DNA of 64,000 nucleotides from Zygnema cylindricum (taxonomy: Eukaryota; Streptophyta; Zygnematophyceae; Zygnematales; Zygnemataceae): assembly GCA_037447655.1 (NCBI GenBank), contig JBBHKE010002692.1, forward strand, positions 1 through 64,000, read 5' to 3'. The position numbers and the translations under genes were made by a program. Positions 551-64,000 of this stretch are shown piece by piece; the first letter of the stretch is position 1, and each line of letters begins with the position of its first letter. The notes below the pieces were generated by a model, which was not told where the DNA came from, searched no databases, and saw nothing but the letters and a program-made list of their open reading frames with translations.

Positions 551-622
551 TCTGTATCTATCTTGCTCGGCTGTACTGTTCTAGTAGAACATACTAATGA
601 GCAGTTCGTAGCACCTAATTCT

Positions 623-2261: not shown

Positions 2262-2263
2262 TA

Positions 2264-19266: not shown

Positions 19267-19267
19267 T

Positions 19268-41489: not shown

Positions 41490-42543
41490 TGTAGAAATTA
41501 ATTGTCCATTTTAAGTATTTTCTAGGTCTAAATAGAAATATAAAAAGAAGCCGAGACAGTCTACCTCTGACTTCTCTCTCTAACTCTCAAACTTGTCGCA
41601 GTCACTGAGAAATTGGAGTGGGAGCTAGAGCCATGGCTACCTAAGCTATCCATAGGTTTACAGGAAATATATATTAATTAGGGGTTTATTTACTGAAAGG
41701 TATGTGCCGGCCACAGGATTTGATCCTGGTACCTACCGGCTGGCAGACAGCAGGCAGTAGGTAGCTTTAGCCGTTAAGTCTAGAAGTAGTGTTACGTATT
41801 ATATGGTTTGATATTTAGTTAAACATTAATAGGTAGGATAATTCATTTAAATGTAATAGTTTACGGGATACATAGATCCAGTAATGTATAAGTACGGATT
41901 ACGGTACGGACAACAAATCAATACCGCACATTTATTTCTTTAGTGAAACGAATACCGCACATGTATTTATTACGAATACGATTAAATTCGAATTTAATCA
42001 GACGGCCGGAATTAGCGCCGAGATCGCGGAAGAAGATTTTGGCGGTTTGTGGCCATCGCCACATCAATGACACGTGGCATAATTACATTGGATCGTGGTA
42101 TCTCCGGAGATTATGGCACCGAATCCGGATATGACATGTGTCGACATTTAAGCCATGTCGTATAATGTCCGTACATATAGTACACCGGCAGCTGTACTTT
42201 TGCGTACGGAACTGCAATCTGATTGGTTTCGTACATCAGTAGATAGAGTCTGTGAAAGAGATATGACTTAGAAAAATTAGGAGATAGGACCCTCTCTCCC
42301 AGAGAGCTTTTGTACAAAAGGTCAACTTTGACCCTCCATAACTTACTGCTCAAGGGAGCAAATTCAGAGATTCCTTTTGCTATCAACTCAAGGGAGTCAT
42401 GCCTTCACAGGGGTGCAGGTGGTCAAAGTTTTTGACTCCCAGTGTGGCTTTTGTTTTTGCTGAAATACAAAAGGGTCAGAGTTATCCTAGAGGCTTCTTG
42501 GAAGTTGTCCACTCTGAGGACTTATGGAGGTCTCAGAGTTTCA
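41490..42543 (+). repeat. 5' LTR of copia C
   Basis: 1,054 bp. Contains the G-box CACGTG at 42071-42076, GTAC-rich motifs near 42165-42235, and the tRNA-like region at 41700-41790, where CAGGAT and ATCCTG form a perfect inverted repeat. The gag ATG is at 42524, 20 nt before the LTR end. Confidence 0.92.
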
Positions 42544-43640
42544 GGTTATGGGCCCACCCTCTAGGGTACCAATCTTTAATGGAACAGGCTTCATATACTG
42601 GGAAAGTATGATGATAGGAGCTCTATGTGAAAAAAGGTTTTGGGGGATAGTGAGTGGACACTTGGGGCGTCCATCAAGTCTTGGAATCCCTCCAGGGTTT
42701 GGAGGAAGCAGATTCACCAGGAAAGAGGATCCACCTTCAATTGAGGAAACAAAGGAAAGAGAAGTGGTGGATAAAGGAAAGGAGAAGGAGGCGACCACAC
42801 CAATAGCAACTGGTTCAGCATTCATTTCACCTATTCCGAGGAACGAGGAGAATGATATCGAAACTTGGGACTTCAACAATATGGCGGCAAAGCACTTCAT
42901 CCTACGCCATCTCACTCAAGGACTTACATGTCCTCATTTGCAGGTAGAAAGGACATCCGATCTTTGGATGGCTCTCATAGAGATTTACCGAAGTGGTACG
43001 ATTAAGCAACAACAGTTGGCTGATCAGAAAGTTAAGGAGTATGTATACTAAGGGGGGAAGATGTTGGATTTTTGCAATGAGCTTGCTACACTCTTCATGG
43101 AGCTAGAGAGTGCGGGAAAAGATTTTAGTGAAAAAGAAAAGGTTAAATGTTTACGGATGAAGTTACCTGATGAGTTCGAGAACATAGTCAACCGTGTGCA
43201 GGACTTGCCGGACTCAAGGTGGATAAAGAACTCAATGGTAGGGATGATTCTCGTTCGGGAGAATACGATTGAGATCCGAAGGGGAGGAAAGAGTGGCCAA
43301 GCCTTAGCAACTGCGACCGATTGGAGGAAGAAGGATTCCCGAAAACCGGTCGGAAACTATGGGGGGAGGGAGCAGAAAAATCAGACCGACGAGTTTGGAC
43401 CAAGGGCTCCCAAAGGTCTATGTCATTTTTGTAAGAAACTTGGGCACTATATGGCAGAGTGCACTAAGCTAACCGAGGTTCGGTTAAAGGAGGGGCAGAC
43501 CGGTGGTACCCCGAGAGGAAAGAAAAAGGCCCTTGTGACACAGGTACATGAGGCGGAATCCGAGGACGAGGAGGATGAGCTCCATTTAGATGAGGAGTTG
43601 GAGGCGAAAAACGAGATCGAAATTCCACGAAGGCAGAAAT
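42524..43640 (+). pseudogene. Copia C gag
   Basis: Starts at ATG 42524 in the LTR end. It is in one frame with a single TAA at 43049-43051, where copia B has AAA (Lys). The second piece is open from 43052. It has the same order as in B: YWESMMIGALCEKRFWGIV, AAKHFILRHLTQGL, LDFCNELATLFMELESAGKD, CCHC knuckle CHFCKKLGHYMAEC at about 43424-43465, and an acidic tail ending at EIPRRQ near 43638. Here glutamine stands where copia B has TAG, and the protease follows in frame. The family therefore encoded a fused Gag-Pol. Confidence 0.9.
42544..42558 (+). promoter_or_regulatory. Copia C primer-binding site, internal tRNA-iMet type
   Basis: GGTTATGGGCCCACC immediately follows the LTR with no spacer, identical to that of copia B. 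Its conservation in two diverged copies shows it is the real primer-binding site of the family. Confidence 0.85.
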
Positions 43641-44651
43641 GTGCTTACGGTGGATTGAAAGGTGAAACAGGCTGGATTGTAATTTCAAGTGCCTCCATGC
43701 ACATGTGTAAGGATAGGCACTTGTTCACTAAGATAAGAAATATTCCCACCGTAGAGATAGAGTACGGGGATGGGAGGATAGTCACCACTACTCTTGTAGG
43801 ATCGGTAGATTTGAAAGTGTTAGTAGAAGGAAAGACATCCGAAGTAACATTCTCCGATGTATTGTTTATTCCGGAGCTGAACAAAAACCTCATCTCTACA
43901 TTCGTATTAGATGATAAGGGTTTTTGTACTAGCACTAGGGAAGGAGTCTTTACTGCTAGTTTTGAGGAGGATGTCTTTCATTGCTGAGAAAGGTAGCCAT
44001 GGGATGTTTAGGCTGGTTTTAAGTAATGAAAAGAAGAAACTTTATTATGCTGGTGTTCATGATATTATGATGTGGCATAAGAGGCTTGGGCATGTGAATC
44101 TAGACAAGTTAAAAGAGATGAAAAAGATGGGAGTGGTGGAAGGGATTAAGTTCAGTGAGAATGATAATATAAGTGATTGTAGTGGATGTGCTCAAGGTAA
44201 AACACACAAATTACCATTTCCTAAAAAAACCACCTATAAGGGAGAAAAAATTCTAGATCTAGTACACACAAATATTTGGGGACCGGCTAAAGTGCCCTCA
44301 CCGGAGGGGAAGAGATTTATGATGACTATCACTGATGATTGGTCTCGGTATTCTCGGGTGTATTTTTTGAAAAAAAAGTCCGAAGCTCAGGATTGTTTTA
44401 GACAATATAAAGCATGGAGCGAAAAACTCCATGAAACTCCAATCAAGAGAATACAGAGTGACAATGGTGGAGAGTATACTTCTAACTAGTTTGAGGATTT
44501 TCTGAGGGAAGATGGGGTCCAACACCAAAAGACAGTTCCACAAAACCCGGAACAGAATGGGGTAGCTGAAAGGTTAAATAGAACACTACGTGATAGTGCT
44601 AGAAGTATGTTGTCAGATAAGAAGATATGAAAAAGGTTTTGGGCAGAAAGA
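43641..44651 (+). pseudogene. Copia C protease, pre-integrase and integrase N-terminal part
   Basis: The protease active site reads WIVISSASMHM: the D-S/T-G triad of the family is altered (Asp to Ile and Gly to Ser by comparison with VDSGAS in copia B), so protease is dead. A 2-nt loss at about 43976 shifts the frame. Pre-integrase and integrase continue at 43911-44489 (MMWHKRLGHVNLDKLKEM, CSGCAQGKTHKLPFP, LVHTNIWGPAKVPSPEG, where the first catalytic Asp is Asn, and QSDNGGEYTSN). It is stopped by TAG 44487-44489, then NGVAERLNRTLRDSARS and TGA at 44628-44630. Confidence 0.9.
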
Positions 44652-46877
44652 ATGAACTGTGCTAATTACCTCAAAAATAGAGTTCTTACCTCAGCTGTAA
44701 AAGATCAAACACCTTATGAGAGATGGACTGGCCGGAAACCAGACATATCTCACTTAAAGGTTTTCGGCAATCAAGTATTCAGTCTAGATACTGATCGGTC
44801 CAATTGGAAGCTAGATCCAAACGGAAAACCGGGATACTTATTAGGATATGATGAGGATGTTAAAGGATATAGAGTTTATGATCTTAAAAGGGAAGATATA
44901 ATCTTAGTAAAGTATCTAGTAGTTATGGATGAAAGAAAGTCTGTGGATCTCTTCAAGTATACAAAGTCAGTAAAAATCAGATTTGAGTCAGAAAATTCCG
45001 ATGACTTTGAGCTTCCTAACTATCCAGGTTTTAGAGAAGATGACATTCTTGCAGGTACAAATCAGACCGAAAAGGACTCGGCTGTGGAAACTCCAGTGAC
45101 AACTCTACCTGAAGAGGAAGACGTGGTGGAAATTAATTCAGAATCAAGGGATAGGGGAGAAGTCGAGTTTGTTCGAAAGAATCCACGAGAACCATCTATT
45201 CCGGCCTCAGATTTTGAGGGGGGAAGAAGAAGTAGCAAAAGACTGCAAGAGAAACAGGTTAATTACAAGGTAACTAAACTATCTCATCAAGATGAACCTC
45301 AAACTTATGGAGAGGCGATGACTTGTCCAGAAAGAAACCGATGGAAGACAGCCATCAATGAGGAGATGGCTTCAATCATGGCAGCCGATACTTGGGAGCT
45401 GGTGGACTGTCCACCTAACCGAAAACCAATCGGTTGTAAGTGGGTTTTCAAACTAAAACTGAACCCAGATAACACAATCGAGCGCTACAAGGCTAGATTA
45501 GTGGCAAAGGGATTTACACAAAAGGAAGGAATTGACTACGAGGAAACCTTTGCCCCGGTGGTCAGATTTCCCTCCGTCCGCATACTTCTCAGTTTAGCAG
45601 CGGCGGAAGACATGGAAGTGCATCAGATGGACATCAAGACAGCCTTTTTGCATGGAGAATTGGAAGAGGAGATCTTCATGCGACAACCCGAAGGTTTTGT
45701 GGAGGAAGGAGAGGAGAGTAAGGTATGCCGGCTGATTAAATCTCTTTATGGTTTGAAACAGGCACCTCGACAATGGAATAAGAAGCTTGATGAGTTTCTT
45801 ACCGGTCTGGGATATATCCGGATCAGCTCAGATCACTCAATCTATGTTTTCGAAGATGAATAAAGTTTTATATTTATTGCAATTTATGTTGATGATTTGC
45901 TTGTTTTAAGTAAATCAATGGAAAAAATAAATAAACTGAAAACCGATCTTAAGGGGAGATTTGAAATGAAGGATATGGGGGAAGCAAAAAATATTTTGGG
46001 AATTCAAGTAGAGAGAGACCGAAAAAGAAAAATTATATGATTGACTCAAAAGGAAGCAATAGGGAACATGCTTGAAAAATTTCAAATGGATAAAGCTAAT
46101 AGTTCTACAACTCCAATGGAGTTGAAGAAGGGAAGTGAGGGGAGTGAGGAAGAAGGAGTCATAGTCTTAGACGAGGAATTATCTCCTGAAGAATAGAAGT
46201 TCATGCAGACTATTCCTTACACGCAAGTAGTGGGAAGTCTAATCTATTTTATGAATTGTACACGACAGGATTTAGCTGCAGCTGTAGGAGTGCTGAGTAG
46301 AAGTCTAAATGCTCCCACAAAAAGGGATTGGGAGGCAGCTAAGAGAGTCCTTAGATATTTGATAGGATTTAGGGATCTATGGTTGCATTTTGGTGGGGAG
46401 AATACTGACATCACTACTTGGAGTGATGCCAGTTATGGTGATGCTCCGATGAGGAGATGCACTTCTAGATATGTACTATATGTGGGTGATGGGGCTTGCT
46501 GTTGGAGTAGCAAACAAAAAAAAATTATTGCTCAGTCCACCATGGAGGCTGAGTATATGGCCTCTTGCTCTGCTGTAAAAGAATTGATGTGGGTCAAGTC
46601 TTTGCTTGTTGAGCTTGGTCACCTTAAGAGTGGTGTGCAGAAAATATTTTGTGATAATCACGCAGCTATCGCTATTTTTGCCAATCTTAAACATCATTTT
46701 AAAGCCAAACACATTGATATCAGACTCAGCTTTGTTAGAGAGAAAGTAGAAAACAAAATAATCAGTTTAGAGTACAGACCAGATAGTGAGAAGTTAGCAG
46801 ATATGATGACCAAACCTGTGCCTTCCCCTAAGCTAATTTTCTACAAGGAAGTGTGGTCTGAAATTAAAGATTGACTA
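44652..46877 (+). pseudogene. Copia C integrase end, RT and RNase H
   Basis: A 403-codon piece (44652-45863) contains the integrase C-terminal part (NYLKNRVLTSAVKDQTPYERW), linker, and RT through KSLYGLKQAPRQWNKKLDE, ending at a stop just before the intact YVDDLLVLSKS (about 45887-45920). Further stops lie at 46038-46040 and 46194-46196. RNase H 46203-46874 has WSDASYGDAPMRRCTS, QSTMEAEYMAS and CDNHAAIAIF. All pieces are in one frame. Very close to copia B along its length. Confidence 0.9.
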
Positions 46878-46891
46878 GAAAGTAAGAGGAG
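46878..46891 (+). promoter_or_regulatory. Polypurine tract of copia C
   Basis: GAAAGTAAGAGGAG lies immediately before the 3' LTR start TGTAG at 46892. Confidence 0.85.
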
Positions 46892-47955
46892 TGTAGAAAT
46901 TAATGGTCCATTTTAAGTATTTTCTAGGTCTAAATAGAATTATAGAAAGAAGCCGAGGGAGTCTACCTCTAACTTCTCTCTACTTCTCTCTCCAACTCTC
47001 AAACTTATCGTAGTCATTGAGAAATTGGAGAGAGAGCTAGAGCCATGGCTACCTAGGCTATCCAGAGGTTTACGAGAAATTTATATTAATTAGGGGTTTA
47101 TTTACTTATAGGTATATGTCGACCACAGGATTTGATCCTGGTACCTACCGGCCGGCAGACAGCAGGTAGCCGGTAGCCTTAGCCGTTAAGTCTAGAACTA
47201 GTGTTACGTATTATATGGTTTGATATTTAGTTAAACATTAATAGGTAGGATAATTCATTTAAATGTAATTATTTACGCGATACTTAGATCCGGTAATGTA
47301 TAAGTACGGATTACAATACGGACAACAAATCAATACCGCGCATTTATTTCTTTAGTGAAACGAATACCGCGCATGTATTTATTACGGCTACGATTAAATT
47401 TGAATTTAATCGGACGGCCGGAATTAGCGCCGAGATCGCGGAAGAAGATTTCGACGGTTTGTGGCCATCGCCAAATCAGATGACACGTGGCATAAATACA
47501 TTGGATCGTGGTATCTCCGGAGATTATGGCACCGAATCTGGATATGACATGTGTCGACATTTAGGCCATGTCGTACAATGTCCGTACATAAAGTACACCG
47601 GCAGCTGTACTTTTGCGTACGGAACTGTAATCTGATTGGTTTCGTACATCAGTAGATAGAGTGTGTGAGAGAGATATGACTTATAAAAATTAGGAGAAAG
47701 GACCCTCTCTCCCAGAGAGCTTTTGTACAAAAGGTCAACTTTGACCCTCCATAACTTACTGCTCAGGGGGGCAAATTCAGAGATTCTTTTTGCTATCGAT
47801 TCAAGGGAGTCTTGCCTTCACAGAGGTGCCGGTGGTTAGAGTTTTTGTCTGCTAGGGTGGAAGTTGTTTTTGCTGAAACACAAAGGGGTCAGAGTTATCC
47901 TAGAGGCTTCTTGGAAGCTTTCCACTCTGAGGACTTATGGAGGTCTTGGGGTTTA
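46892..47955 (+). repeat. 3' LTR of copia C
   Basis: About 1,064 bp. G-box CACGTG at 47484-47489; tRNA-like region at about 47118-47200. The last bases have decayed (GTTTA in place of GTTTCA). Confidence 0.9.
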
Positions 47956-49707: not shown

Positions 49708-51095
49708 CCGCGAATACCCTCTGCACCAAGGGGGAGAGGAGTCCTCCCTGGGGGGAACACCCTCCCTCCAACAATTTTCTCAGGCGCTGGTACTTCCCCT
49801 ACGGGAGAGGGACCCACACCTCGCAGGGCAACACCTCCTACCGGAGGAGGAAGCGGTTCCGATCCCGAGGGAGGGAACACAGGAGTCACTTCGCCGGCAC
49901 AGTTTGTCAATCCCACCTGCCCTTCCTATTCTCAGTTCACCGAATCCGCAGAAGAAGAGAAGGAAATGGGGGACATTCGGCTATTTACAGGGGATAGCTC
50001 AGGGATCGCTTTCTCAGATTTCAAGTTGTTGTGGAAATCGTTCACCCAATCAGAAATCAATAAATACAGGGGAGGAGAAATTCCGGATGACTTCAAAACC
50101 ACTCTCATTCCTATTATGGTCAACTACCTCTCTGGAGGGGCGTTGGCAGATTAGAAGGAGGGTCAACCTCTCTTGATGGCTCCTAGCATCAAGATCTCCG
50201 ATCCAGCTCTTGATGCGGCAGTTTTACAAGCGATGGCTGACTTCGCTGCAGCGGCGGCCACACCTGTGACAACAATCTTCACCGAGGATATGAAATTGCA
50301 AGCCCAAGGTAGGTTCTATGTTAACCAGCTGCAAGCCATGGAAGCAGCTCGGGCGGCAACACGCATGGTGGCCAATCTCAACCCTTGCACTACCCTTCTC
50401 AATAGTTGGAGACTCATCTACACCGAGAGGAATGAATCGGCGATCAAGGAATTCACGATATTCTGATGCTTGAAAAATGAGACTCCCTAGACTCTCTTCA
50501 ACCGCGTTTCAAGCATTTGCCAGAAAACGAAGCTGTTGACCATTGACCTTCCTGCAATGGCCACAAAGTACTTTATAGCTGTCCGTAATTCCTTCAGACC
50601 GACACGGCAGACTGCTTTGGATAATTGGATTGCCGCACAAGCTATCCAAGACATAAATCCCTCTGCCAAGGACATCTCACTGGTGGCAATGAAGCTATAC
50701 GACCACTTCGTTCATAGTGAGGCAAGGGAAAAGGCCGTGAGCGGCAAGGCCCGAGCAAATTTTGCAGGTTTCGCCGGAGAAACTTCGTTAAGTGGGGATG
50801 AACAAGCGCAACTTCAAGCTTTGCGGAAGCTTAAAGGGAAGCAAGTGGCGGCCATGAGTCGCGAACCTTCCATGGGGGCAGACAACCGAGTAATTCTGTA
50901 CAATTGCCTGAATTGCCAACAATCGGGACATGGATGGAAACGCTGCAGCAAGAAACTCAAACTGGAGCTAGCCCTCAAGCTGAAGGAATGGGAAGTAGAG
51001 CGATCAGAAAAGAACCAAAAGCAGTAGCAAGAACAGCTAAAAGGAGGTGGGGGGGGAAGAGAACGACTATCACCAAGGACAATTACCGCCCCACT
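49708..51095 (+). pseudogene. Gypsy G gag, capsid-like region and zinc knuckle
   Basis: From 49966 to 51027 one frame is kept with only three stops (50152-50154, 50464-50466, one near 50488). It holds IRLFTGDSSGIAFSDFKLLW and FTQSEINKYRGGEIPDDFKT, an Ala-rich helical region (ALDAAVLQAMADFAAAAATP), AIRNSFRP-like and WIAAQAIQDINPSAKDISLV helices, and the zinc knuckle CLNCQQSGHGWKRC (C-x2-C-x4-H-x4-C) at about 50905-50946, followed by a basic tail. This is the order of a Ty3/gypsy capsid and nucleocapsid, although the capsid is not close to the families I know best. Confidence 0.7.
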
Positions 51096-51633: not shown

Positions 51634-52299
51634 TTGATGGGCTGGGATTTGGAACCCCCAAATGCCCACCATGCAAGCAGTTTCCTGCACGGAGCGTGGA
51701 ATGTGGGAGTGGGAGATGGTCGTAGACCACTTCACTCCTCAACCTCAGATCAGAGGAGAGACAGGCAAAAAATGGCCCCGAAAGACCACAACCTAAAGGC
51801 CACCGGGCCTTTATCTTTCACCCCCCGGGCAGTGATGCTAAACAGTGACGTAGGCCTCGGGGTCAAGCCCACTCATCCTCCTCCTCTTCTTCCAAAATCA
51901 AAACCGCCTCCCGATTTCGAAAATTACCAAAGTACAAAACAACAACAGGAAAAGAAATCACTGGAAGAAGAGAAACAGAGCAATCAAGAGTGGTTTGACC
52001 AATACATGGCCGAACGCCCAGACGAAGAGGAAACCCACACTCCACCAGTGCATGATTCCGGTTCAGAGAGTGATGACAAGAAGGGTAACCAAAAGGATCA
52101 GGAACCAGATCCGCCGATGTCATCCCAAGGAGCACCACTCCCTTCCTCCAAGCCAGCTGTCATGCATGTCCGGCACCTTATACCGTATGCCGTGACCCAT
52201 GTCAAGACCCTTGCCTCCTCCCATAATCTGCTCGAAGATATCCTCATTCAGGCCTTGAAGAAGAGATCCATTCCGGAAGAGACAAAATCGACTGGGTGA
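51634..52299 (+). pseudogene. Gypsy G linker, acidic/Pro-rich, before protease
   Basis: A 221-codon open frame in the gag register. It contains no domain: KPPPDFENYQSTKQQQEKKS, an acidic QYMAERPDEEETHTPPVHD stretch and LASSHNLLEDILIQALKKR at the end. It overlaps the start of the protease frame by 4 nt (GTGA at 52296-52299). The protease-like reading already begins upstream in the other frame (RDKIDWVTPP), so an indel near 52250 is more likely than a programmed frameshift. Confidence 0.5.
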
Positions 52300-52860
52300 C
52301 ACCACCTACGGCGGTAAAATTGTCTTCAGATCCTAAAACCCCTATGGTGGATAGGGACTACAAAACCTTGTCCGTAGCTCTCAATCTGAACCGAACCGGC
52401 AATTTCAAACTTAACGGGTACGGCGGGTACCAAGACGTTGTGGTCGACACCGGCGCACTTCCCAACTTTATTACCACTTCCGCATTGCAGAAAAATGCCT
52501 GAAGAACTCAGACCCCAAATCTGCCCGAGTAACATATGCTTAAGCACCATAAGCAGCGGCAATCAGCCCGTCCATGGGATAATTAAAGCCATGGAAATTG
52601 ACTTTGCCGATGACGTTGGATAAATGGTGAAAATTGAACTGCCTTTCTTAGTGGTAGAAGGAACTTAGTTTGAAATCATGATGGGGATGCCTCTCTGGAC
52701 CCGGATGAATATGAGTTTAAGCGTTTGGAAGGATCAATGCATTGTCCGGGACCTCGGAAATCCCGAAGGGACCAAAGTGGCGGTTTCTTTGGATTTATGG
52801 AACCGGGGGAAGACAAATGTTCCTGTGTCTGGCGGCTACCCAGTGTATTTTGTTTGACAG
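52296..52860 (+). pseudogene. Gypsy G aspartic protease (retropepsin)
   Basis: VVVDTGALPNFITTSALQK at about 52438-52495 is the D-T-G-A active site followed by the N-F-I pattern usual in plant Ty3/gypsy proteases. A shift at about 52495 moves it to the next frame, where GNQPVHGIIKAMEIDFADD (about 52558-52615), KIELPFLVVEG and EIMMGMPLW (about 52675-52700; the family has I(I/L)G(M)xxL here) continue the fold. Two stops lie inside. It processes the polyprotein; this copy is inactive. The methyltransferase follows within about 250 bp. Confidence 0.75.
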
Positions 52861-52963
52861 TTCCACTGATATCGCCGAGGACATCTAGCAATTCCTCATT
52901 TCCAAGCGGTGGGAAAGGGAATACAAAAACAGATTAATACAGGTCGCAAAACTCCCGCGGGGA

Positions 52964-54160
52964 GTGGATCAGGCTTTCACGACCATATTATTTCCGGTAA
53001 CAAATTCGACAACCCGGTCAGATGTTTTCCAAACCAAGACCAGTAACAAGGACTTCAATCGACGAGTGGTGTCATTGACAGCCCTCGACAACGCGCTTCA
53101 CATTTTATCTTTATTTTCAGGAATTAGTTCGGACTTGGAAGTAGTTTTGAGATCACGATACCGGATGGAGTTATATGCAACAGTGGAAATTTCACCGGAG
53201 GCACGAGCTGTCAGCAAACACCGCCTCCATCAATTGCACCATTTATATCCTCAACAACTTCCTGTGTCTGCAATTTCCAAGGCTCACCGGAGTCTTCCCC
53301 AAAATGTGGATAACATAATGGCGCCTCATTTAGCTAGTCTGGGCAGAATAGATCTGGTTGTGGCGGGGTGGCCTTGTCAGGGATACTCCCTAGCCGGGCA
53401 AGGTAAAGGACATCAAGACCGCATGAGTGGAACCTTTCATCGGATGATCACCATAATAACGTGGATTCAGCAGCTCCAAAACACACCAGTGAGGTACATC
53501 TTGGAGAATGTCCACCCAGGAGATGAGAAACGAAAACAGGTTGCAGACAACTGGAAACAAGTAACCCATATGTTAGGAGGCCCTTTGATTTTTGACGCTG
53601 CTCAAATAAGATCTCAAGCACACAGAGTCCGGGCATATTGGACCAATATAATCCCGCTTCTAGTACTCCGGCAACTGTTGGAGAAACAAATCCTCGACTA
53701 ACAAACATCCGTCCAGGAAATACTTGGGAAGGGAAGAATAGCAACCCCAGTACCAAAACCGGATCGTACTCATTTCTTCCGATGCAACAGACTCGGGTTC
53801 CCACTCCGAGCACTCCCCACGTTGGTTTCTCTTCCTCACAGTCACGCCTACCGGAAAGGGGCACCTGGAAAGATTTTTGACGGCAAGACAAAAATTTGGA
53901 CCGCACCAAGAATTTCGGAACAACAACTAACAATGGGATTCAATCCGGAAACAACGGCCGCACCAGGTATTTCAGACCAACAAAGGTGCAGCTTAATAGG
54001 GCAAATCATGGATTTGAATGCCGTTACATGGGTTTTAAAACACGCACTCGCCTATACCAGTCTCGAATCGCCAGATTCACGCAAAAGTTACCTTCAAGCT
54101 CCTAAATTGCTGTGCATGCAAGAAAATTTGCAGCTTGAGGGGGGGAGAGAAAAGAGATAA
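52964..54160 (+). CDS. Cytosine-5 DNA methyltransferase carried by gypsy G (one stop codon inside)
   Basis: Transfers a methyl group from S-adenosylmethionine to C5 of cytosine in DNA. Numbering from GTG 52964: motif I LHILSLFSGI (residues 45-54, SAM binding), motif II/III region LYATVEISPEA (70-80), motif IV DLVVAGWPCQGYS (130-142) with catalytic Cys138 (53375-53377), motif VI YILENV (178-183), motif VIII AAQIRSQAHRVRAYWTN (212-228). A TAA at 53699-53701 follows ILD. The same frame then continues to 54160 with VQEILGKGRIATP and the motif IX-X region ISEQQLTMGFNPETTAAPGI ... VTWVLKHAL. Order I to X is canonical, not the rearranged DRM order. It lies after the protease and before RT. The true N-terminus is unclear: the frame is open leftward to a TAG near 52887. 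I infer translation as part of the polyprotein. Confidence 0.88.
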
Positions 54161-54268
54161 ACTCTACACCCGAGAGTTCATTCAGTGGGGGGGAGCTGTT
54201 GTTCACAAGTGGACAGCTTAGCGGAAGTTGTCAGCAGCAAGGTATTATCCAGAGGAGGGGAGGTGGAT
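54161..54268. other. Junction of gypsy G and gypsy H; purine tracts
   Basis: GTGGGGGGGAG at about 54187-54197 followed by CTGTTGTTCAC resembles a polypurine tract plus LTR start. This leaves open that the methyltransferase frame ends an element here. A second G-rich tract, GAGGGGGGGAG, is just before the end of the methyltransferase frame. Confidence 0.4.
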
Positions 54269-55490
54269 CTAGAGGTGGGTCTGGATTTTGTCATACCATC
54301 GAAATTTCCCAATTCTGACGCGTAACCTCGGAGTACGATGGGTAATCGATAAGGAACTTCCGTCGACCAATTGTACTGACTGATGATCTTTTAGCACCAC
54401 AAGAGAAAGTTTCAACCTTTTCACGTTCACCTCATTGATGAAGTTCCCCGATGCTCCAGAGTCCACCATGAAGTTAGTTGCGTTCACTCCGATTTGACCC
54501 CGAAATATCAAAGGGTCTCCTCCTTCTCTAGCTAACCTCAAAACGTTAAGTTTTCCCTTTTTGGGACCTTTCGGTTTTGGACATTCTCCAGCCATGTGAT
54601 CTGGGGAACCACACTGGAAGCATAGGCCATTTTGCCTCCTCCCCTTAAGCTCCTTGGGGGATAAGTAGTTGGTCTTGGTCTTGGTAGGTTTCTTCTTTCT
54701 CCGCAGGACGTTGACCACTTCTTTATCCTCTTCAATTGCGCCAAGCTCCATGGGGGTTGGACCATCCTGTCGTCGGTTTATTCGGCTCTTGCTCCACCGA
54801 TAGTGATAAGGTCTCTGGAGGTTAAAGCCAACCGAATCGGTCCGCTTGCCAAGAGAGTTGGAGTCATGCTTTCCCAAGCAAGCCATTGTTCCACATCCCT
54901 ACAAATAGATGATATAAGCCCCTTCACGTAGCGAACAACAACTTCATCCTCCATCATCGTAGGTATATGAACTTTGCACTCCAAGAACCGCTACGTAAAC
55001 TCGAACACTGAGGTTCATTGCTTCAATATTGCGATCTTATCTCTTGCTGCCTTCATCGTGTTGACGAGCTGCCAAGCGTCGCGGAGAAGTTGAGCGAAGA
55101 GTGCCTAGGTAGTCGGTATCTCATCATCCTCCACCAAAAGCCCTCCACCATGCCCCCACTCCCCCTTTAAAAAGACCACCCGCGTAGTGAATCTTCTTCC
55201 GATCCGATAGACTAGGAAAATTCTCGAGATAGTTTGCAACGAAGAATAGCCATGTGTCAAGGTTTTTGTGTCTTGCAGGGTCAAACTCGTCGGGAAGTCT
55301 TAATTTCAGTCTCTTGAAGTCTCTCTCCATGCCTCCATGGGGTCGCTCCCCAAGACGAGACTCCAAGGCTACGACGGTGTTGCTCAGCTACGCATTCCCT
55401 AATCTAACACTTTCTAACTCCTTTAGAACTTGCGCTAACATTTATGTAGTGGATACGCCGTGTTCATCCATGTTGTCAAGCACAGGGAAT
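54269..55490 (-). pseudogene. Gypsy H gag and protease fragment
   Basis: Minus strand. Starts near ATG 55472 (MDEHGV..., stops), LAQVLKELESVRLGNA, then the 80-codon frame 55366-55124 with RLKLRLPDEFDPARHKNLDTW and FVANYLENFPSLSDRKKIHY, the Retrotrans_gag pattern. After a shift comes 54984-54778 (MEDEVVVRYVKGLISSICRD), then 54886-54269 with PTPMELGAIEE, zinc knuckle CFQCGSPDHMAGEC and the protease active site FMVDSGASGNFINE. The element is cut off after protease, so RT and integrase are absent. It belongs to a different gypsy lineage from G and lies between the methyltransferase and RT of G. Confidence 0.85.
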
Positions 55491-55503
55491 AGCTCTGATA
55501 CTA
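55491..55503 (-). promoter_or_regulatory. Primer-binding site of gypsy H
   Basis: The minus strand reads TAGTATCAGAGCT, one base from TGGTATCAGAGCT, the usual tRNA-iMet 3'-end type. It lies one base inside the LTR end (TTTTACA). Confidence 0.75.
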
Positions 55504-55504
55504 G

Positions 55505-55946
55505 TGTAAAAGGGACAATAGTACACACAGCACGCCACAATCCACAGCGGAAAATACGAAGGATCTTCACGTAGTAACAGTACGAGTACACAACACTGAC
55601 AGACAAGTTGCGCTTTATTACTTGGGAGAGAGTACAAGGTTTGCGCTCGCTGCGAAGGTCTACTCAAACAAGAGTGTCTACTCACTAAGCCTACTTCACT
55701 TTTTAAACTAGCTAACTATTAGTCAACCAAGTACTATACAAATGTACACGTGGAACTTCACGGTCAACCGAGATCTATCCAAACATTCTTATAGAACTAT
55801 ACCGCTCGATCTACATTCTGCGGCGTTGCTCTGCTGCGCTGCTATGTTGCTGCGCTACTAAGTTGCTACGCTGCTAAGTTGCTATGCTGCTACGCTGGGC
55901 TGGTCTAGAATCGCAGCTACGCTGCTCTTGAAACGCAACTATAGCA
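55505..55946 (-). repeat. 5' LTR of gypsy H (outer limit approximate)
   Basis: The inner end TTTTACA adjoins the primer-binding site. Near the outer end is a tandem tract of GCTGCTAAGTTGCTAC-type units (about 55820-55915). The outer boundary is set at TGCTATAG but could be up to 20 bp further right. Confidence 0.6.
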
Positions 55947-55964
55947 GCCCAGCCCTAGCCACTA

Positions 55965-57102
55965 AGTACCCAAATGCTGTAACGCTGGTACAATCTTCTC
56001 CATAATGGCCATGAAGAACAGATTCCACCAGATTTCCATGGAACCAAAACACAGAGAGAACCGCATTCTGGGCAGGATCCAGATTTTATGAGTGGGTATA
56101 CATGCCCTTCGGGCTGAAGAATGCACCAGCCAAATTCCAACGGGCCATGGACGAAGCGCTCGGAGGAATCGACTGTGCTCGGTGCTTCATCGACGATGTG
56201 ATAATATTCTCAAAGACCTTTGAAGAACACATGGAGTATATCCAGATCGTCCTCCGGGCTCTTCAAGCAACGGGCTTGAAATGTCACCCGGACAAGGGTA
56301 TTTTTGGGGTGCAAAAAATTATTTACCTCGGACATGAGGTGACACCCGGGACTTTGGGTCCCCATATGGTTAAGGTTGTAGCCTTGGACGCTCTTCCTCC
56401 TCGCAGGACATTTCTGCTTTGCGCACCTTTCTCGGCTTGGATAACTATTATCGCTGGTTTATTCTCGAGTTCAGTAGTCATGCCCAACCCTTAAATAAGC
56501 ATTTACGGAATGATCAAGAATGGCAGTGGGCCGAGGAACAACATATCTCTTTCCAGTTTTTGAAGGATGCCCTGAAGCAACACCCAGTTCTCTGGATGCT
56601 TGATCACCAAAGGCATTTCCTCCTTTACAGTGATTGGAGCAGGTTTGGATTGGGGGCGATTTTGACTCAAGTTGACGACGCCGAGGCCGAGTATGTGGTG
56701 GCTTACGCCAGTCGGAGCAACAACCGAGCTGAGGGGAACTATAACAGTTATCATGGGGAGCTTTTGGCTGCTGTTTGGGCCATCCAACATTTCAGGCCTT
56801 ATTTGTACGGGGTCCATTTCACACAGATTACCGACCACAAACCCCTGAAATGGATCATGGAAAATAGTAAGTTGACCGGCAAACTCGTCAGAAGGGTGCT
56901 TATCCTGCAAGAATACGATTTCCGCATTGTCCACCGCGCAGGGGAAATCCATAGGACTGCCAACGGTCTTAGCCGAAACCATGATCCCTCTACCCTGGAT
57001 TCCACCGAGGCTCGGCATGACGAAGACCCGGAAATCGGTTTGGGACTCATTCGAGCATCCTCCGCTTTAATTTGGCTTCCTCCATCTGGGGGGGCATTGT
57101 GA
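55965..57102 (+). pseudogene. Gypsy G reverse transcriptase and RNase H
   Basis: RT enters at motif A: GTIFSIMAMKNRFHQISMEP, where the catalytic Asp (family FSxMDMKxGFHQI) is Ala. A shift follows, then AFWAGSRFYEWVYMPFGLKN and frame 56102-56494 with FQRAMDEAL, the catalytic FIDDVIIFSKTFEEH (56188-56232) and ITYLGHEVTP-like primer grip (IIYLGHEVTPGTLGP). One lost base near 56405 moves it to 56419-57102: LRTFLGLDNYYRWFI thumb, then RNase H with LYSDWSRFGLGAIL, YHGELLAAVWAIQHFR and TDHKPLKWIMENSKLTG. The RT N-terminal third is missing where gypsy H lies. Inactive. It is classical Ty3/gypsy order, RNase H before integrase. Confidence 0.88.
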
Positions 57103-57263: not shown

Positions 57264-57883
57264 ATGGGACCAAGACGTTTTCCTCGAAAATGGTATGACG
57301 CTACGAGGAAAGTGGTTCCACCTTCATCTGATCGAGAAACTCTAATCACCAATCTTGATAAGCAATGTGGACACTTCGGACAGAAGCGGAGCACTTCCCT
57401 AGTTACAGGTTCTTATTGGTGGCACGGGTTGCGGGCCCAAGTCAACCGAATTTTATAGACTTGCGCCTCTTGCGATCGTGTTAAGGTTTCTTTTGACAAA
57501 AAGGGAGGGACTAAGCTTCATTCTCTTCCTATACGGGGAATGTTTTATCGGTGGTCTTTGGATCTTTTGGGACCTCTTCCGACCAGCCGACAGGGGAATC
57601 GTTTCGTCCTGGTCATGATTGAACATTTCTCAAAATGGATAGAGCTCGTGGATCTGCCCCGAAAGGAGTCCAAGTTCATCGCTGATGCCTTCTTGCAGAG
57701 AGTATTGTCACAATTTAGAGCTCCAACAGAGGTTCTGATAGACCAAGGATCAGAATTTGCCGAAGAATTTACCAATTTTTTGGAGAAATGTCTCATCGAC
57801 CATCGACTTACCAGTCGCGACCACCCTCAAACTGACGGTTTGGCAGAAAGGTGCGTACAAACAATGAAGCGGTCACTACGTAA
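57264..57883 (+). pseudogene. Gypsy G integrase, N-terminal and core part
   Basis: HHCC zinc domain: LDKQCGHFGQKRS, YWWHGLRAQVNRI, a stop, then TCASCDRVK (57348-57480). Core in frame 57540-57929: FYRWSLDLLGPLP (first Asp), TEVLIDQGSEFAEEF (second Asp, about 57728-57770), DHPQTDGLAERCVQTMKRS (catalytic Glu, about 57820-57875). The frame is interrupted by copia D after the CGTAA duplication at 57879-57883; the downstream half resumes at 61443. Catalytic D, D and E are all present. Confidence 0.88.
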
Positions 57884-59182
57884 TGAAATTCTATGGGCTC
57901 CATTGCCACACAGAATTCGCAAGTCTTAAAGGAAGCTAATCTAGATAGTGCCGACTCCAACTTGATATAAACCCAAATGATTGACCCCTTGACAATCAGA
58001 ACCCCATTAAAGCTTCCCCCCTGTGAAGTAAGACTTTCTGTGTGCTCAGTCCCACCACAGAATGCAAAGTTAGAATATGAGATTTGGACACATTCCCCCA
58101 CTTTGACTTTTCCTTAGAAATGCAGCCACCCAGGAAGGCAAAAACTCTGACCGACTACACCCCTGTATAGCCTGGACTCCTCTGAGTCCGTAGCAACAAA
58201 AATCACTGAAATTGGTCAACTGAGTTGATAGTTATGGCTGGCCAAAGTTTGCCATTTATACAAGGAGCTCTGTGGGAGAGTCAGCTATCTACCCGAAATA
58301 TTCTAAGTCCTAAACTCCTCTAGTACTGAGGTACTGACCAATCACATTACTGTATAGTACATAAAGGTACAGATGTCGGTGTACCTTTTGTACGGTCATC
58401 GTACGACATGGCTTAAAAATAACCAAATGTCCTAACCGGATTCGCTCTTATAATCTCCGGAATTCCTGCCTCCAAATCTTATCTCTCCACGTGGGGCCAA
58501 GTCATGCCGCGTCATAAAAATGGTACCGTACAAGAAAATACAAGTGCCGGAGTACTTTCTGTACGTACATTGTACGATGTCGCCATAGTGCGACATTTGT
58601 CACTCCCGGATTTGTTTTCTGCCGTTCCGGAAATTCCGTAATCCCGTACGATGTTGCCACGTGTCATCCGGAGTGGCGGCGTCTGCAAACTGCCAAATTT
58701 TCCTTTCCGCGATGTCGGCGCTAACCACGGCCGTCCGATTTACATCGTAATTAAAACTGACCGTCGAAATAAATGTCCGTACTATTTATTTTGTCCGGTA
58801 CTAAAAACACAACTGTTTCTATGCCCTATATACCGTAATCCAGTTAAATGGAAAACCCTACCTATAACTATTTAAATATTTTTCAAACCCTACACGTACT
58901 AGCACTAGTCCTAGGCTAAAGGGACAAAGCTAACGGCTACGGGATGTTTGACGGACGGCAGGTACCACGATCAATTCCTGGGTCCGTCAAATACCTTTTT
59001 AGTAAACATACCTGTTATCTATTCCTGTCTCTCTGAAGAGCTTAGGCAGCCATGGCTCTAGCTCCCTCTCCAGCCTTTAGTGACTACAACAAGTGTTGGG
59101 GCTTCGAGAAGGGAGTCAGAGGCAAACTGCCTCTACTCTTTTTCCATCTAGTAAAGACCTAGAAAATACCCAAATATCAACA
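57884..59182 (-). repeat. 3' LTR of copia D with internal duplication
   Basis: 1,299 bp, about 260 bp longer than in B. The module GTAC..TGTAC..ACATGG..CCGGATT..CCACGTG occurs twice in tandem (about 58345-58520 and 58525-58690), each with its own G-box (58498-58503 and 58658-58663); B, C and E have one. The tRNA-like region lies at about 58905-58990. The frame 58651-58875 is a shadow. Confidence 0.9.
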
Positions 59183-59194
59183 CTCCCCTTATTT
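59183..59194 (-). promoter_or_regulatory. Polypurine tract of copia D
   Basis: The minus strand reads AAATAAGGGGAG beside TGTTGATATT, the same as in copia B. Confidence 0.88.
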
Positions 59195-59200
59195 TCTAGT

Positions 59201-59848
59201 CTACTTCCTTTCAACTCTTACAAACAAAATAAACAAAGCACTCCCTCCCCTTTTTCCTTTTTCTTTTCTTTTTCCTTTTATATAACTTAAAAAAAAAATG
59301 CTCTCGTATTTAAAACAATGCATTAGATGAAATAAAATAATAATTGCATCACACATTTCATTTAGCATCCCACTTATCATAAATCCGAGCAAAGATTTTA
59401 TCCACCTCTTCTCTTTTCCATCCACACTAAATCCACTTTCCCTCTTGCAATTCAAACAACCAGCCCCATCTCCAATCTGCAACACACACCCTGAGGCTAA
59501 CCCTTTTACAGGCACACCTTCAAAAATGTCATCACTCCCTTTAGTGATGTCAAACTCATTACCCCCAAAACATGAACTTTCCTCACTCTCTCCCATGGAT
59601 TTCTTTCCACTCTCACTTTCCAAATTTATTCCAAATAAATATTTATCCTCCCCTAAAACTTTCATTAAATATTCCTCTTCTCTCTTATCCTTTAAAACCC
59701 CTTCTAGTTTCACTTCTCCCCTTTCCTCGGAATCCGTTGAAGTCTCTTTTTCCGACCAGTTTTCTAATTCCAAAAAACCTATAAAATTATACTCATTAAT
59801 TTTATTTTTCCCGTTTTCACTTATGGGTCCTAGATCTGACTCTCTCAT
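59201..59848 (-). CDS. Copia D ORF2: shrunken pol remnant
   Basis: 215 codons. ATG (59846-59848) comes directly after the stop of ORF1, in the same frame. Short stretches line up with copia B in order: LMKVLGEDKYLFGINLESES against MKDMGEARYILGIQVERD (RT end), GGNEFDITKGSDDIFEGVPV against GGENTDITTWSDASYGDAPM (RNase H), GCVLQIGDGAGCLNCKRESG, KRWIKSLLGF and MCDAIIILFHLMHCFKYES against the CDNQAAI block. RT catalytic core, integrase and protease are gone, and the first RNase H Asp block is changed (TKGSDD). The frame has stayed open through many deletions, which is unusual. Function unknown. Confidence 0.6.
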   Translation of the reverse strand: MRESDLGPISENGKNKINEYNFIGFLELENWSEKETSTDSEERGEVKLEGVLKDKREEEYLMKVLGEDKYLFGINLESESGKKSMGESEESSCFGGNEFDITKGSDDIFEGVPVKGLASGCVLQIGDGAGCLNCKRESGFSVDGKEKRWIKSLLGFMISGMLNEMCDAIIILFHLMHCFKYESIFFLSYIKGKRKEKGKRGGSALFILFVRVERK

Positions 59849-60241
59849 TTATAAGTCATACACTTTACACTCCTCAACATCCTCTAGTACCTCCTCTCTC
59901 TTTACTTCCCTTATACCTCCAAAAGCACACAGTTGCCTTCGTGGAATTTCTGTGTACTTTTCTCTTTTCTCCATTCTACCGATGTGAAGAAGCTCCAAGA
60001 TTTCTTCATCCTCTTTCTCCTCTTCCCCTTCTTCCTCCTCAATCACATACCGACTTCTAAGTTCTTCCAAACAAGGACACTCCTCCATATAGTGACCCGG
60101 TTTCCTACAAGCGAAGCAAACCCCTTTTTTCAAAGCTCCCCTTTCTTTTCTTCTCCCTCTCTTTCCACCAGAGTTCCGATAAGGTTTACCTTTTTCTTTC
60201 TTCCTCTCATCACGCTTCCGCTCGTCACCGCCGTTCCTCAA
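59849..60241 (-). CDS. Copia D ORF1: gag zinc-knuckle tail
   Basis: 130 codons on the minus strand. Very basic N-terminus (RNGGDERKRDERKKEKGKP), zinc knuckle CFACRKPGHYMEEC (C-x2-C-x4-H-x4-C, near residues 43-56), acidic Glu-rich tract, then YTEIPRRQLCAFGG, the gag-protease junction of the family, then an abrupt jump to ECKVYDL, resembling the integrase C-terminal GYRVYDLKRED block. So gag tail and late integrase are fused by deletion. Ends at TAA; ORF2 follows at once. Could bind RNA through the knuckle; that is inference. Confidence 0.65.
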   Translation of the reverse strand: MRNGGDERKRDERKKEKGKPYRNSGGKRGRRKERGALKKGVCFACRKPGHYMEECPCLEELRSRYVIEEEEGEEEKEDEEILELLHIGRMEKREKYTEIPRRQLCAFGGIREVKREEVLEDVEECKVYDL

Positions 60242-60262
60242 ATCAACCCTAATATAGATTCA

Positions 60263-61437
60263 CCCCTGTGAAATAACACTTTCTGTGTGCTCAGTTCCAC
60301 CACAGAATGCAAAGTTAGAATATGAGATTTGGACACATTCACCCACTTTGACTTTCCCTTAGAAATACAGCCACCCTGGCAGACAAAAACTCTGACCGAC
60401 TACACCCCTGTGTAGCCTGGACTCCCCTGAGTCCGCAGCAAAAAGAATCACTGAAAATGGTCAAGTAAATTGATAGTTATGGCTGGCCAAAGTTTGCCAT
60501 TTATACAAGGTGCTCTGTGGGAGAGTCAGCTATCTACCCGAAATATTCTAAGTCCTAAACCCCTCTCTAAACCCTCTAGTACTGAGGTACGGACCAATCA
60601 CATTACTGTATAGTACATAAAGGTACAGATGCCGGTGTACCTTTTGTACGGTCATCGTACGACATGGCTTAAAAATCAACAAATGTCCTAACCGGATTCG
60701 CTCTTATAATCTCCGAAATTCCTGCCTCCAAATCTTATCTCTCCACGTGGCGCCAGGTCATGCCGCATCATAAAAATGGTACCGTACAAGAAAGTACAAG
60801 TGCCGGAGTACTTTCTGTACGTACATTTTACGATGTCGCCATAGTGCGACATTTGTAACTCCCGGATTTGTTTTCTGCCGTTCCGGAAATTATGTAATCC
60901 CGTACGATATTGCCACGTGTCATCCATAGTGGCAGCGTCTGCAAACTGCCAAATTTTCCTTTCCGCGATGTCGCCGCTAACCACGGCCGTCCGATTTACA
61001 TCGTAATTAAAACTGACCGTCGAAATAAATGTCTGTACTATTTATTTTGTCCGATACTAAAAACACAACTGTTTCTATGCCCCATATTCCGTAACCCAGT
61101 TAATGGAAAACCCTACCTATTACTATTTAAATATTTATCAAACCCTACACGTACTAGCACTAGTCATAGGCTTAAGGGACAGAGCTAACGGCTACGGGGT
61201 GTTTAACGGACGGTAGGTACCAAGATCAATTCCTGGGTCCGTGAAATACCTTTTTAGTAAACATACCTGTTATCTATTCCCGTCTCTCTGAAGAGCATAG
61301 GCAGCCATGGCTCTAGCTCCCTCTCCAGCCTTTAGTGACTACAACTAGTGTGGGGGCTTCGAGAAGGGAGTCTGAGGCAGACTGCCTCTACTCTTTTTCC
61401 ATCTAGTAAAGACCTAAAAAATACCCAAATATCAACA
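60263..61437 (-). repeat. 5' LTR of copia D (inner end deleted)
   Basis: Matches the left LTR from its position 58018 onward and also carries the duplicated promoter module and two G-boxes. The inner ~134 bp and the primer-binding site are missing. The tRNA-like region is at about 61165-61250. Confidence 0.88.
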
Positions 61438-61442
61438 CGTAA

Positions 61443-62190
61443 ATATGCTCTTGAAGAGGACTTGGGAGAATGGGACAGAAGGGTGCCTTGGATTGCCATG
61501 GGATACAGGTTCAACCGGCAGGCTTCTCTCCACTCCTACAACCCTTACTTCATTCTATTTGGAAAACATCCCATCTTGCCCGAGGCGGCATCGGCCTAAG
61601 CGGTGGTCCTCCTGAAAATTTATGACAAGGGAATAGTCGAAAAGCTGATCGCCCATCGGGCCAAAATTTTCCACCGAGAGATTCCTCTCGCTATGGGGAA
61701 TTTACAGGGTGCCCAACACCGGGATCAGTTATGGTTTTCCCACCGACGGAGAGGCAACAATATGCCCCGACAGCGACGATTTATTCCCGGAGACTTTGTT
61801 TATCAAATGCAACAGAAAAAGGATACGCTTGACATTTCTGCCGGGCGGGTGATTTTGAAAGTGGTGGAAGTTTCGAACAAGGGAGTTCTGACTTTAGAGG
61901 GGAAGGATGGTCGAAGAATTAAAGAGAATCAGATCAATGTGGCCCCTTGTCATCTCCGGGGATTGGAGGACGAACCTACTTTCCACTCGACTTACTTTGC
62001 CGATCCTCTTTCCTGTTCATCAGCTTGCAACCTGTCCTCCCAACGGCAAGAAATCTTAGTGTGCAATCGGTGTGGTTAATGTTGGCATCCAGTTTGTCTC
62101 CCCTCCTCGTGGGAACCACGCTTACTACCCTCCAGCTTATGGGAACTGTGAATTGGGCGGTTAATTGTTCTGATGTCTTAGTCGCTGTTG
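61443..62190 (+). pseudogene. Gypsy G integrase, C-terminal part
   Basis: Resumes after copia D: ALEEDLGEWDRRVPWIAMGY and SYNPYFILFGKHPILPE, the end of the integrase core, then a TAA at 61597-61599. The same frame continues at 61603-62079 with AHRAKIFHREIPLAMGN, a GPY/F-like SH3 module (RRFIPGDFVYQMQQKKDTLD, SAGRVILKVVEVSNKGVLTL) and, at the end, CNLSSQRQEILVCNRCG, stop, CWHPVCL. The last Cys/His cluster looks like part of a PHD-type zinc finger (C-x2-C ... W-H-x2-C). I see no chromodomain. PHD assignment is tentative; the rest is secure. Confidence 0.8.
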
Positions 62191-62479: not shown

Positions 62480-62636
62480 CACGCTCGACAATTATCGCCG
62501 ATAAGTAGCCGATATTATCGGCTATTTATCGGCGATAGGACCGATAGCGATATATCGTACCAATACATCGTTTATAGGGTCCCCGAAAAAAGGCCCATAT
62601 CGGTTATCGGCAAATCCTTACCGATACACAACACTA
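62480..62636. mobile_element. hAT-like right end (TATCG-rich)
   Basis: Dense CCGATA, TATCGGC and ATATATCG motifs end in TTACCGATACACAACACTA, whose inverse closely resembles the left end of the element at 9450. No matching left end occurs nearby, so it is truncated. It abuts the MITE at 62637. Confidence 0.5.
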
Positions 62637-63119
62637 CACCGTGAATCGCTATTAGCGTAATAAAAAATATAGCGTAATGAAACAATTAGCGTACTTTACT
62701 GTAAATTGTGTTTTTTCGGGTACACCATGATACTAATTTATCATGTACTCTAATTTGTAAACTGCTTTGTAAAAATTTTCGGCACATAATATGTCCACAC
62801 TAGAACATGTAGAAGTACGAAATTGTTCAAATCGTACGCCGTCTTTTTTGACATATGCGTATGCCCGGAAAATATTTACGCAATTAAATTATTATTTTTT
62901 CTGTGTTTTTAAATTTAAAAAGGTACGTAATAAAACAGATCTGGCAGTCCGTACACCACACTATTTAAAGGACACTAAATTACAGTTATGAACCGTATTG
63001 AGCGGGGTACCTCAAATAATGTGCAAAAACATTTAGCATACTTTATTCTATTTGAGATTTTGCCCCAAAAAAAGGGTTACCCCAATTAGCGTCATGTACG
63101 CTAATAGCGATTCACGGTG
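62637..63119. mobile_element. 483-bp MITE of Tc1/mariner type with perfect TIRs
   Basis: Starts CACCGTGAATCGCTATTAG and ends with the exact inverse; the terminal 22 bases match fully. TA flanks both sides (62635-62636 and 63120-63121). No transposase; the frame 62791-62991 has no domain. Perfect ends indicate it is younger than the relatives at 2047 and 10344. Confidence 0.85.
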
Positions 63120-63121
63120 TA

Positions 63122-64000
63122 CTATTTAGTATTTACAAGTCCTTCACGCGTCTAGCCTTCGCCTGAAACTACGTCAACAATGAGGCGTCACAGTCACAGT
63201 GCGCATGAGTCGTATTTGAACTTGGTAGCGCGAGTCAACGATTTCGCCAAAAAACGACAAGCGGCTGTACAAATTTTGTACACATTTCGTACATATTTGC
63301 TACGGAAGACGTAACAATTTGCTACGGAAGACGCCCAACCAAAATGACGCATGCGCGTATCATTTCTCTAAATTTTACTCAAATTCGTCTTTGGTACGAT
63401 TTTCAAATCCACAATACGTCAAAAATAGTACGACATTTACACTCGACGCTTATGATGCCAGCTCAGCGTACACGCAACCAAGTAGACATAATATCGCGTT
63501 GATTGCAAATAATTAATGTTAATGTGTTAAACAATTCTGGCACTCATACACAAAATAATTTTTATAACATTAACGTTAAAACGATGGAGCAGTGGTGCAA
63601 CTGGCCCAATATGACAAATGAAAGTGACAAGCATATAGGACAATGTTTTATCCAAATACAGTTGCCGTACATATGATGCAATTATGTCGACACGTGGTCG
63701 GTGACGCTATGGGAAGTTGACAAGTAAAAAGAAGGCCGCTGCAATCCCCAAAAAAGAAAAAGAGAGAAAAAAAAAGGAGCCAAAAGAAAAAAAAAAGTTA
63801 AACTCTATGCTGCACACTAAATTTTCCCGAGCCGCACGATTACAATGGTTCAGATGACGTGGAAGTCGAATGATCCACTAAATCTGGTATATGTCATTAG
63901 ATTGAACTTTTGTCGCTAGATCTACAAACCTTAGGGTTTTCCATCAAATCGTATCAATTGTCGATAACATAAATTTAGTTTTTGAAGCTTAAGGGTGAAG
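63122..64000. other. Unannotated DNA
   Basis: Holds one direct repeat, TTTGCTACGGAAGACG, at 63295-63310 and 63317-63332, and an A-rich tract near 63740-63800. No gene recognised. Confidence 0.45.

Follow-up and report, generated by a model that had tools for sequence, protein, structure and literature searches.

The question raised by this locus is whether a cytosine-5 DNA methyltransferase frame found in a 64,000-nucleotide stretch of Zygnema cylindricum DNA (hereafter, the window) belongs to the retrotransposon pieces that surround it, what type of enzyme it encoded, and what such an enzyme would do for its element. In the initial annotation, the frame was regarded as the captured methyltransferase of a gypsy retrotransposon, lying between an aspartic protease and a reverse transcriptase (RT)–RNase H–integrase run on the same strand. 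Bioinformatics analysis revealed that the window very probably contains a decayed Ty3/gypsy copy with the order gag (CCHC)–protease–methyltransferase–RT–RNase H–integrase–PHD, in which the enzyme is of DNMT3 type, and which a gypsy fragment on the minus strand and another LTR-derived insertion subsequently interrupted (Table 1).

Table 1. Features of the methyltransferase-bearing element and of the insertions within it (positions are those of the window; P and L numbers denote relatives mentioned in the text).
Feature	Position	Strand	Remarks
gag CCHC zinc knuckle	50905..50946	+	C-x2-C-x4-H-x4-C pattern; gag-like frame ~49.7–51.0 kb with stops
Retropepsin-like aspartic protease (VVVDTGA)	52332..52734	+	broken by frameshift and stops; tblastn with P0014
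DNMT3-type C5-cytosine methyltransferase domain	53045..54097	+	one in-frame stop, 53,699–53,701
Methyltransferase-frame tail and linker	54098..54270	+	stop at 54,158; P0023 match ends at 54,151
Fragment of another gypsy element	54271..55945	-	gag, CCHC, protease; 5' LTR by position; PBS-like site near 55,490; edges approximate
Reverse transcriptase	55948..56431	+	N-terminal part absent; frameshifts near 56,055 and 56,395; PF00078, 2.6e-17
RNase H	56527..56916	+	PF17917, 3.6e-31; PF17919, 1.5e-29
Integrase, first part	57297..57883	+	rve PF00665, 1.4e-12, at 57,459–57,926; 62% identity to P0055
LTR-element-derived insertion in integrase	57884..61437	-	CGTAA at 57,879–57,883 and 61,438–61,442
Integrase, C-terminal part	61438..62013	+	in-frame stop; 44% identity to P0055 over 61,414–62,145
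Degenerate PHD finger, end of pol	62014..62145	+	in-frame stop; aligns with the PHD finger of L016 and P0055

The gypsy order of gag, protease, RT, RNase H and rve integrase is present in the window, though interrupted by insertions and disrupted by stops and frameshifts. Gag was called by pattern and position, the window knuckle matching those of the relatives L016 and P0064 at E-values of 0.9 and 2 only. The aspartic protease upstream of the methyltransferase proved to be real but broken: it has no Pfam match in the window stretch, and it was recognized through the protease-methyltransferase protein P0014, which matches 52,182–52,490 and 52,516–52,734 (E-value, 1.2e-4, when a 3.45-kb stretch was searched alone). 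The presence of RT, RNase H and integrase on the strand of the methyltransferase was borne out both by Pfam and by matches to relatives; the RT is 84% identical to that of P0023 over 55 aa, and the match to P0055 starts at 55,948. In correction of the initial annotation, the RT–integrase run is separated from the methyltransferase by an insertion at 54.27–55.95 kb and is itself split by a second one at 57,884–61,437. No paired LTRs for the methyltransferase element were found between 47.9–50.0 kb and 62.1–64.0 kb, no DIRS-like repeats were found in the window copy or in the examined part of L016, and Rfam and tRNA searches of the window gave no match.

The minus-strand gypsy fragment (PF13650, 1.8e-6; zf-CCHC, 3.5e-4), whose gag, zinc knuckle and protease occupy 54.27–55.4 kb, ends abruptly inside its protease, and its LTR and tRNA-primer-like PBS were read by eye. 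This gypsy element would have inserted once, after which a single deletion would have removed its 3' part together with a linker/RT piece; the absence of the RT start would be due to this proposed deletion, which joined the fragment to the methyltransferase element. The insertion in the integrase contains two repeats (58,000–59,183 and 60,245–61,438, 93.6% alike), which are reverse kin of the copia LTRs of the window and the first of which begins 116 bases inside the left edge of the insertion. The copia element itself is found twice in opposite orientation (18,218–24,541, minus strand, and 41,515–47,954, plus strand), forming a large inverted repeat in which the two copies are 93–96% alike over the two longest arms. 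Elsewhere in the window, a tandem array with a 24-base period and nine overlapping registers occupies positions 6,118–6,420; host genes were not recognized in the window.

Motifs I, IV, VI, VIII and IX–X of the methyltransferase were located where the initial annotation had placed them, and the translated frame gave a significant match to the DNA methylase profile PF00145 (1.2e-8, Pfam search) in the window frame 52,889–53,698. Past the in-frame stop at 53,699, the methyltransferase frame continues at 53,702–54,157, a stretch that aligns with the target-recognition and motif IX–X part of relatives (34% for P0002 and 41% for P0023). In 20,000 single-base shuffles of this 351-codon methyltransferase region, at least two stops always arose. 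When the methyltransferase family profile was compared with PDB entries, DNMT3A (6e-25) scored better than DRM (3e-11) and HhaI (2e-9), i.e., the catalytic domain is nearest to DNMT3 by sequence, ahead of DRM and the bacterial enzymes; structure comparison (Foldseek against PDB) likewise revealed a DNMT3 fold with the motifs in unpermuted order. The catalytic PCQ motif and the glutamate of motif VI are invariant in all 14 rows of alignment A2, and motif I varies between the methyltransferase groups. The DNMT3A/3B catalytic domain is the nearest solved fold and sequence class to the window domain, at about 22% identity; in contrast to DNMT3A/3B, the window methyltransferase is fused to gag-pol, and no ADD or PWWP domain was seen.

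A first search for relatives returned two, and a profile search then returned 53 proteins. The 68 proteins from a second search, with P0023 including its RT as the query, were pooled with those of the profile search, which gave 65 methyltransferase-bearing proteins, five phage-type ones being left out. An RT, RNase H or integrase Pfam domain is found in the same protein in 14 of the 65, namely in 2 of 48 from the profile search and in 12 of 17 from the P0023 search, which favours pol-bearing proteins because its query contained RT. The remaining 51 proteins have no RT, RNase H or integrase domain, many of them being short, with their neighbours out of view. The proposed capture of a methyltransferase by a gypsy lineage is thus upheld for an enzyme of DNMT3 type, which here lies between protease and RT and which shares a protein with pol domains in the 14 relatives.

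The methyltransferase is located inside the gag-pol frame in all 14 pol-bearing proteins, in P0014, P0062 and P0064, which have a protease in front, and in L016. It precedes RT in P0023, P0054 and P0047, as well as in P0012, which reaches the RT start; P0014, P0062 and P0064 were assigned to the same arrangement by alignment along the gag-protease-methyltransferase of L016. In the second arrangement, the methyltransferase lies between RNase H and integrase; RNase H is seen in front of it in P0056, P0057, P0059, P0069, P0073 and P0075, and integrase behind it in P0067, P0068, P0070, P0077 and P0087. No single examined protein shows both RNase H in front of and integrase behind the methyltransferase. 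At its end, however, P0057 aligns with the part of L016 that precedes integrase, and the eight RNase H/integrase-type proteins included in the methyltransferase tree form one clade with P0072 (100/98). DNMT3A entered this tree from aligned pieces only, on a very long branch (3.74), which limits what the tree can say about its root and about the number of captures. P0059, an RT–RNase H–methyltransferase protein, also has a match to PF01585 (Pfam), which we take to be a G-patch; the G-patch occurs in some retroviral proteases. In P0087, the C-terminal 200 aa, which follow a partial methyltransferase, an integrase and a PHD finger, contain DPF...DPPW motifs, and this tail resembles by eye an adenine-type methyltransferase, a possible second DNA-modifying domain.

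Relatives were encountered as proteins in the JGI, ENA and Logan collections, in a record from Marchantia and, with the complete domain order, on a single public contig, a distribution that suggests a broad lineage. The Marchantia polymorpha protein MARPO_0020s0163 (P0064), named a hypothetical protein, partial, combines gag, CCHC, protease and methyltransferase in one protein aligned along ORF1 of L016; it is 37% identical to the window over 259 aa and has no RT in that protein. Judging by P0064, at least one land-plant (liverwort) record carries such a methyltransferase. Among viral contigs, 15 loci were found in one scan (the best with 47% over 64 aa), none of which (0/15) matches the RT–integrase protein P0055 at an E-value of 0.01, as a gypsy element would; further scans of viral contigs gave no relative.

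Whether the methyltransferase and the pol domains of the window are parts of one element was examined by means of P0023, a protein of 685 aa from a JGI contig in which a single frame covers methyltransferase and RT. This protein is 48% identical to the window methyltransferase in its first half and 41% in the second. It matches the window at 53,048–54,151 and then at 55,984–56,221, its residues 392–602 being absent where the minus-strand fragment sits. In the methyltransferase tree (36 rows), the window and P0023 group together (95/88), the place of the window being less sure because its branch is long (1.02). In the RT tree (37 rows, 120 columns), the window groups with P0023 and P0054 (98/92), although P0023 fills only 58 columns; P0054 likewise combines the two domains, and P0047, the third methyltransferase-RT protein, could not be included on account of its short length. 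The window was placed with P0055 and P0060 in both the RNase H tree (36 rows; 98/94) and the integrase tree (29 rows; 99/97). Because of the gap in the P0023 alignment and the RT tree, the methyltransferase and RT are assigned to one element, and we take the methyltransferase and pol halves as a whole to be one element.

A different possibility is that two elements abut here, the methyltransferase one having ended near 54.2 kb and the 56–62 kb RT/integrase belonging to the other. The 1.7 kb minus-strand element between the halves, the negative search for an LTR pair and the absence of the RT N-terminus would all fit such a junction. We nevertheless consider it highly improbable: the halves are on the same strand and in the right order, the break corresponds to residues 392–602 of P0023, both halves have this single-frame protein as their closest relative in the trees, and the RT branch consists of the window, P0023 and P0054 only, both relatives being methyltransferase-RT proteins. 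Purine runs near 54.15–54.20 kb, which were taken into account as the 3' end of a separate element, were dropped after the P0023 gap alignment and the RT tree. Host DNMT3 genes do occur in streptophytes, according to the accessible text of PMC5890265. That such a gene or a pseudogene came by chance to lie amid transposon pieces, or that the domain is bacterial contamination, is scarcely credible, given that 14 of the 65 relatives join methyltransferase and pol domains in the same protein, and that 35 of 36 matches in prokaryote contigs are at most 32% identical over more than 130 residues (at most 42% over shorter stretches), while the remaining one, L016, carries a bacterial label but is a gypsy element too.

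The contig of L016 (CADCWO010000201.1), one of the 36 loci from the scan of prokaryote genome contigs, is labelled as part of a cyanobacterial metagenome bin; because it encodes a gypsy element, eukaryotic contamination of the bin is very likely. Its ORF1 (3–3488, open at the contig start) encodes a gag in which a regular knuckle and a variant one were recognized by eye, followed by a protease (7.8e-4, a match that does not reach the Pfam threshold) and the methyltransferase (6.8e-12). A single TAG separates it from ORF2, which continues in frame and encodes RT (4e-31), RNase H (2e-38), integrase (1e-13) and a PHD finger (PF00628, 4.3e-10). The TAG is followed by CAATCA, which fits the CAR YYA readthrough rule, and preceded by AAG, as compared with CAA in TMV; according to the accessible text of PMC2754532, the CAR YYA context is essential for readthrough of the TMV stop. 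Based on this context, the TAG of L016 is likely to be leaky, and the methyltransferase upstream of it would then be made in Gag amounts, well above those of RT and integrase. Such expression would not be general, because P0023, P0054 and P0047 have no stop between methyltransferase and RT; the CARYYA context is also absent at the two stops of the window methyltransferase frame. The methyltransferases of L016 and the window are 38% identical over 324 aa, whereas gag and protease give no match better than an E-value of 0.3. That the methyltransferase sequence outlasts gag and protease in this comparison may be read as constraint.

The window copy itself has stops in the gag-like frame, protease, methyltransferase, integrase and PHD finger, and frameshifts in the protease and RT, and thus cannot make protein as read. 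The earlier suggestion that the element methylates its own or host DNA therefore fails for this copy, disrupted as it is in gag, protease, methyltransferase, RT and integrase, and can be made of intact relatives only. At methyltransferase positions kept by at least 95% of the other 33 rows, the window retains 29 of 32, compared to 30/31 in P0023, 30/30 in L016, 29/31 in P0064 and 30/32 in P0057; at those kept by at least 90% of the other rows, the values are 43/53 for the window, 47/50 for P0023 and 48/50 for L016. The losses of the window (3/32 and 10/53) appear to be such as a dead copy would show, and we read the copy as having decayed, probably, not very long ago. CpG depletion was considered as a sign of methylation-driven decay and set aside as not diagnostic, the observed/expected ratios of the methyltransferase (0.78) and the RT–integrase part (0.76) being similar to that of the whole window (0.71). 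In the flank at 62,600–64,000, this ratio reaches 1.49.

Retrotransposon DNMT3s were reported in 2018 by de Mendoza et al. (PMC5890265) and a 2025 article (PMC12344493) mentions them again, there as Copia and DIRS elements of streptophytes and dinoflagellates, both according to the accessible parts of these articles. The existence of methyltransferase-carrying retrotransposons is known, and the window adds a decayed copy. The nearest published element is KnitGypsy-Dnmt3 of Klebsormidium nitens, which, as described in the accessible text of PMC5890265, has an intronless Dnmt3-type domain with key residues kept in the pol of a gypsy LTR element; compared by this description, the window likewise has a Dnmt3-type domain with no intron inside gypsy pol. 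DIRS-like repeats are given for KnitGypsy-Dnmt3 in a figure legend and were not seen here; the window copy, in addition, is broken. From the same text, KnitGypsy-Dnmt3 gave no methylation in yeast, a result its authors call inconclusive, its silent copies bear CHH and CHG methylation, and other retrotransposons in that setting move without a methyltransferase. SymbioDIRS-Dnmt3 of Symbiodinium, for which that text reports de novo CG methylation in yeast, resembles the window in having a DNMT3-type enzyme in retrotransposon pol; it belongs to the DIRS class and has a tyrosine recombinase, in place of which the window has an rve (DDE) integrase (57,459–57,926, 1.4e-12). The word PHD is absent from the main text of PMC5890265, and no earlier description of a methyltransferase element with such a leaky stop or PHD finger was found in a search of literature listings that covered few subscription papers and no figures or supplements.

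As to function, we propose that in intact relatives the methyltransferase would be made as part of the Gag/Pol polyprotein and packaged with Gag/Pol into the particle, where it would act on newly made double-stranded cDNA, methylating it de novo, probably at CG sites, either prior to integration or during it. An integrating copy would thus arrive pre-marked, which may blunt its recognition as foreign unmethylated DNA and may allow it to settle in silent chromatin. Packaging and pre-integration methylation of cDNA have been argued for DIRS elements in the accessible text of PMC5890265. In favour of this proposal are the position of the domain within gag-pol, the methyltransferase sequence retained between L016 and the window, and the CG methylation by SymbioDIRS-Dnmt3 in yeast; against it stand the negative yeast result for KnitGypsy-Dnmt3, the movement of other retrotransposons without a methyltransferase, and the 51 relatives in which no pol domain was seen. 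Taken as a whole, the statement that the window holds a decayed methyltransferase-bearing gypsy and that its intact relatives use this putative mechanism is, in our judgement, evenly poised.

Instead of protecting the cDNA, the methyltransferase might restrain its own element by seeding the silencing of new or related copies, the lower transposition sparing the host. This idea, which was put forward in the discussion of PMC5890265 as far as accessible, agrees with DNMT3 enzymes being de novo methylases and with the methylation of the silent KnitGypsy-Dnmt3 copies. The same packaging would be expected as under cDNA protection, and the present data fit either reading; we consider self-restraint somewhat unlikely. 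It is quite unlikely that the domain targets host DNA or RNA instead of the element's own cDNA, or that it is a structural, non-catalytic part of the particle. The inactivity of KnitGypsy-Dnmt3 in yeast and the differences in motif I between groups would suit such roles, but a structural role would need neither the PCQ motif nor the motif VI glutamate, which are invariant.

Returning to methylation of cDNA in the particle, a wider scheme may be outlined tentatively, although as a whole it seems rather unlikely. A widespread gypsy lineage would carry a DNMT3 writer, in some members before a leaky stop and hence in Gag amounts, together with a possible PHD reader on the integrase, the two domains being found at opposite ends of pol. 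The enzyme would mark the cDNA in the particle and the PHD finger would steer integration, in parallel to the pairing of ADD and methyltransferase in animal DNMT3; the methyltransferase would have settled at two positions of pol, one ahead of RT and the other between RNase H and integrase.

Methylation is a main means by which hosts hold transposons in check, and this usual picture is inverted by elements that encode a de novo methyltransferase themselves. The relatives described here provide a testable expression scheme, with a likely leaky stop 3' of the methyltransferase, as well as a second chromatin-related domain in pol, and the role of the methyltransferase for the element is approachable via one cysteine in an intact relative.
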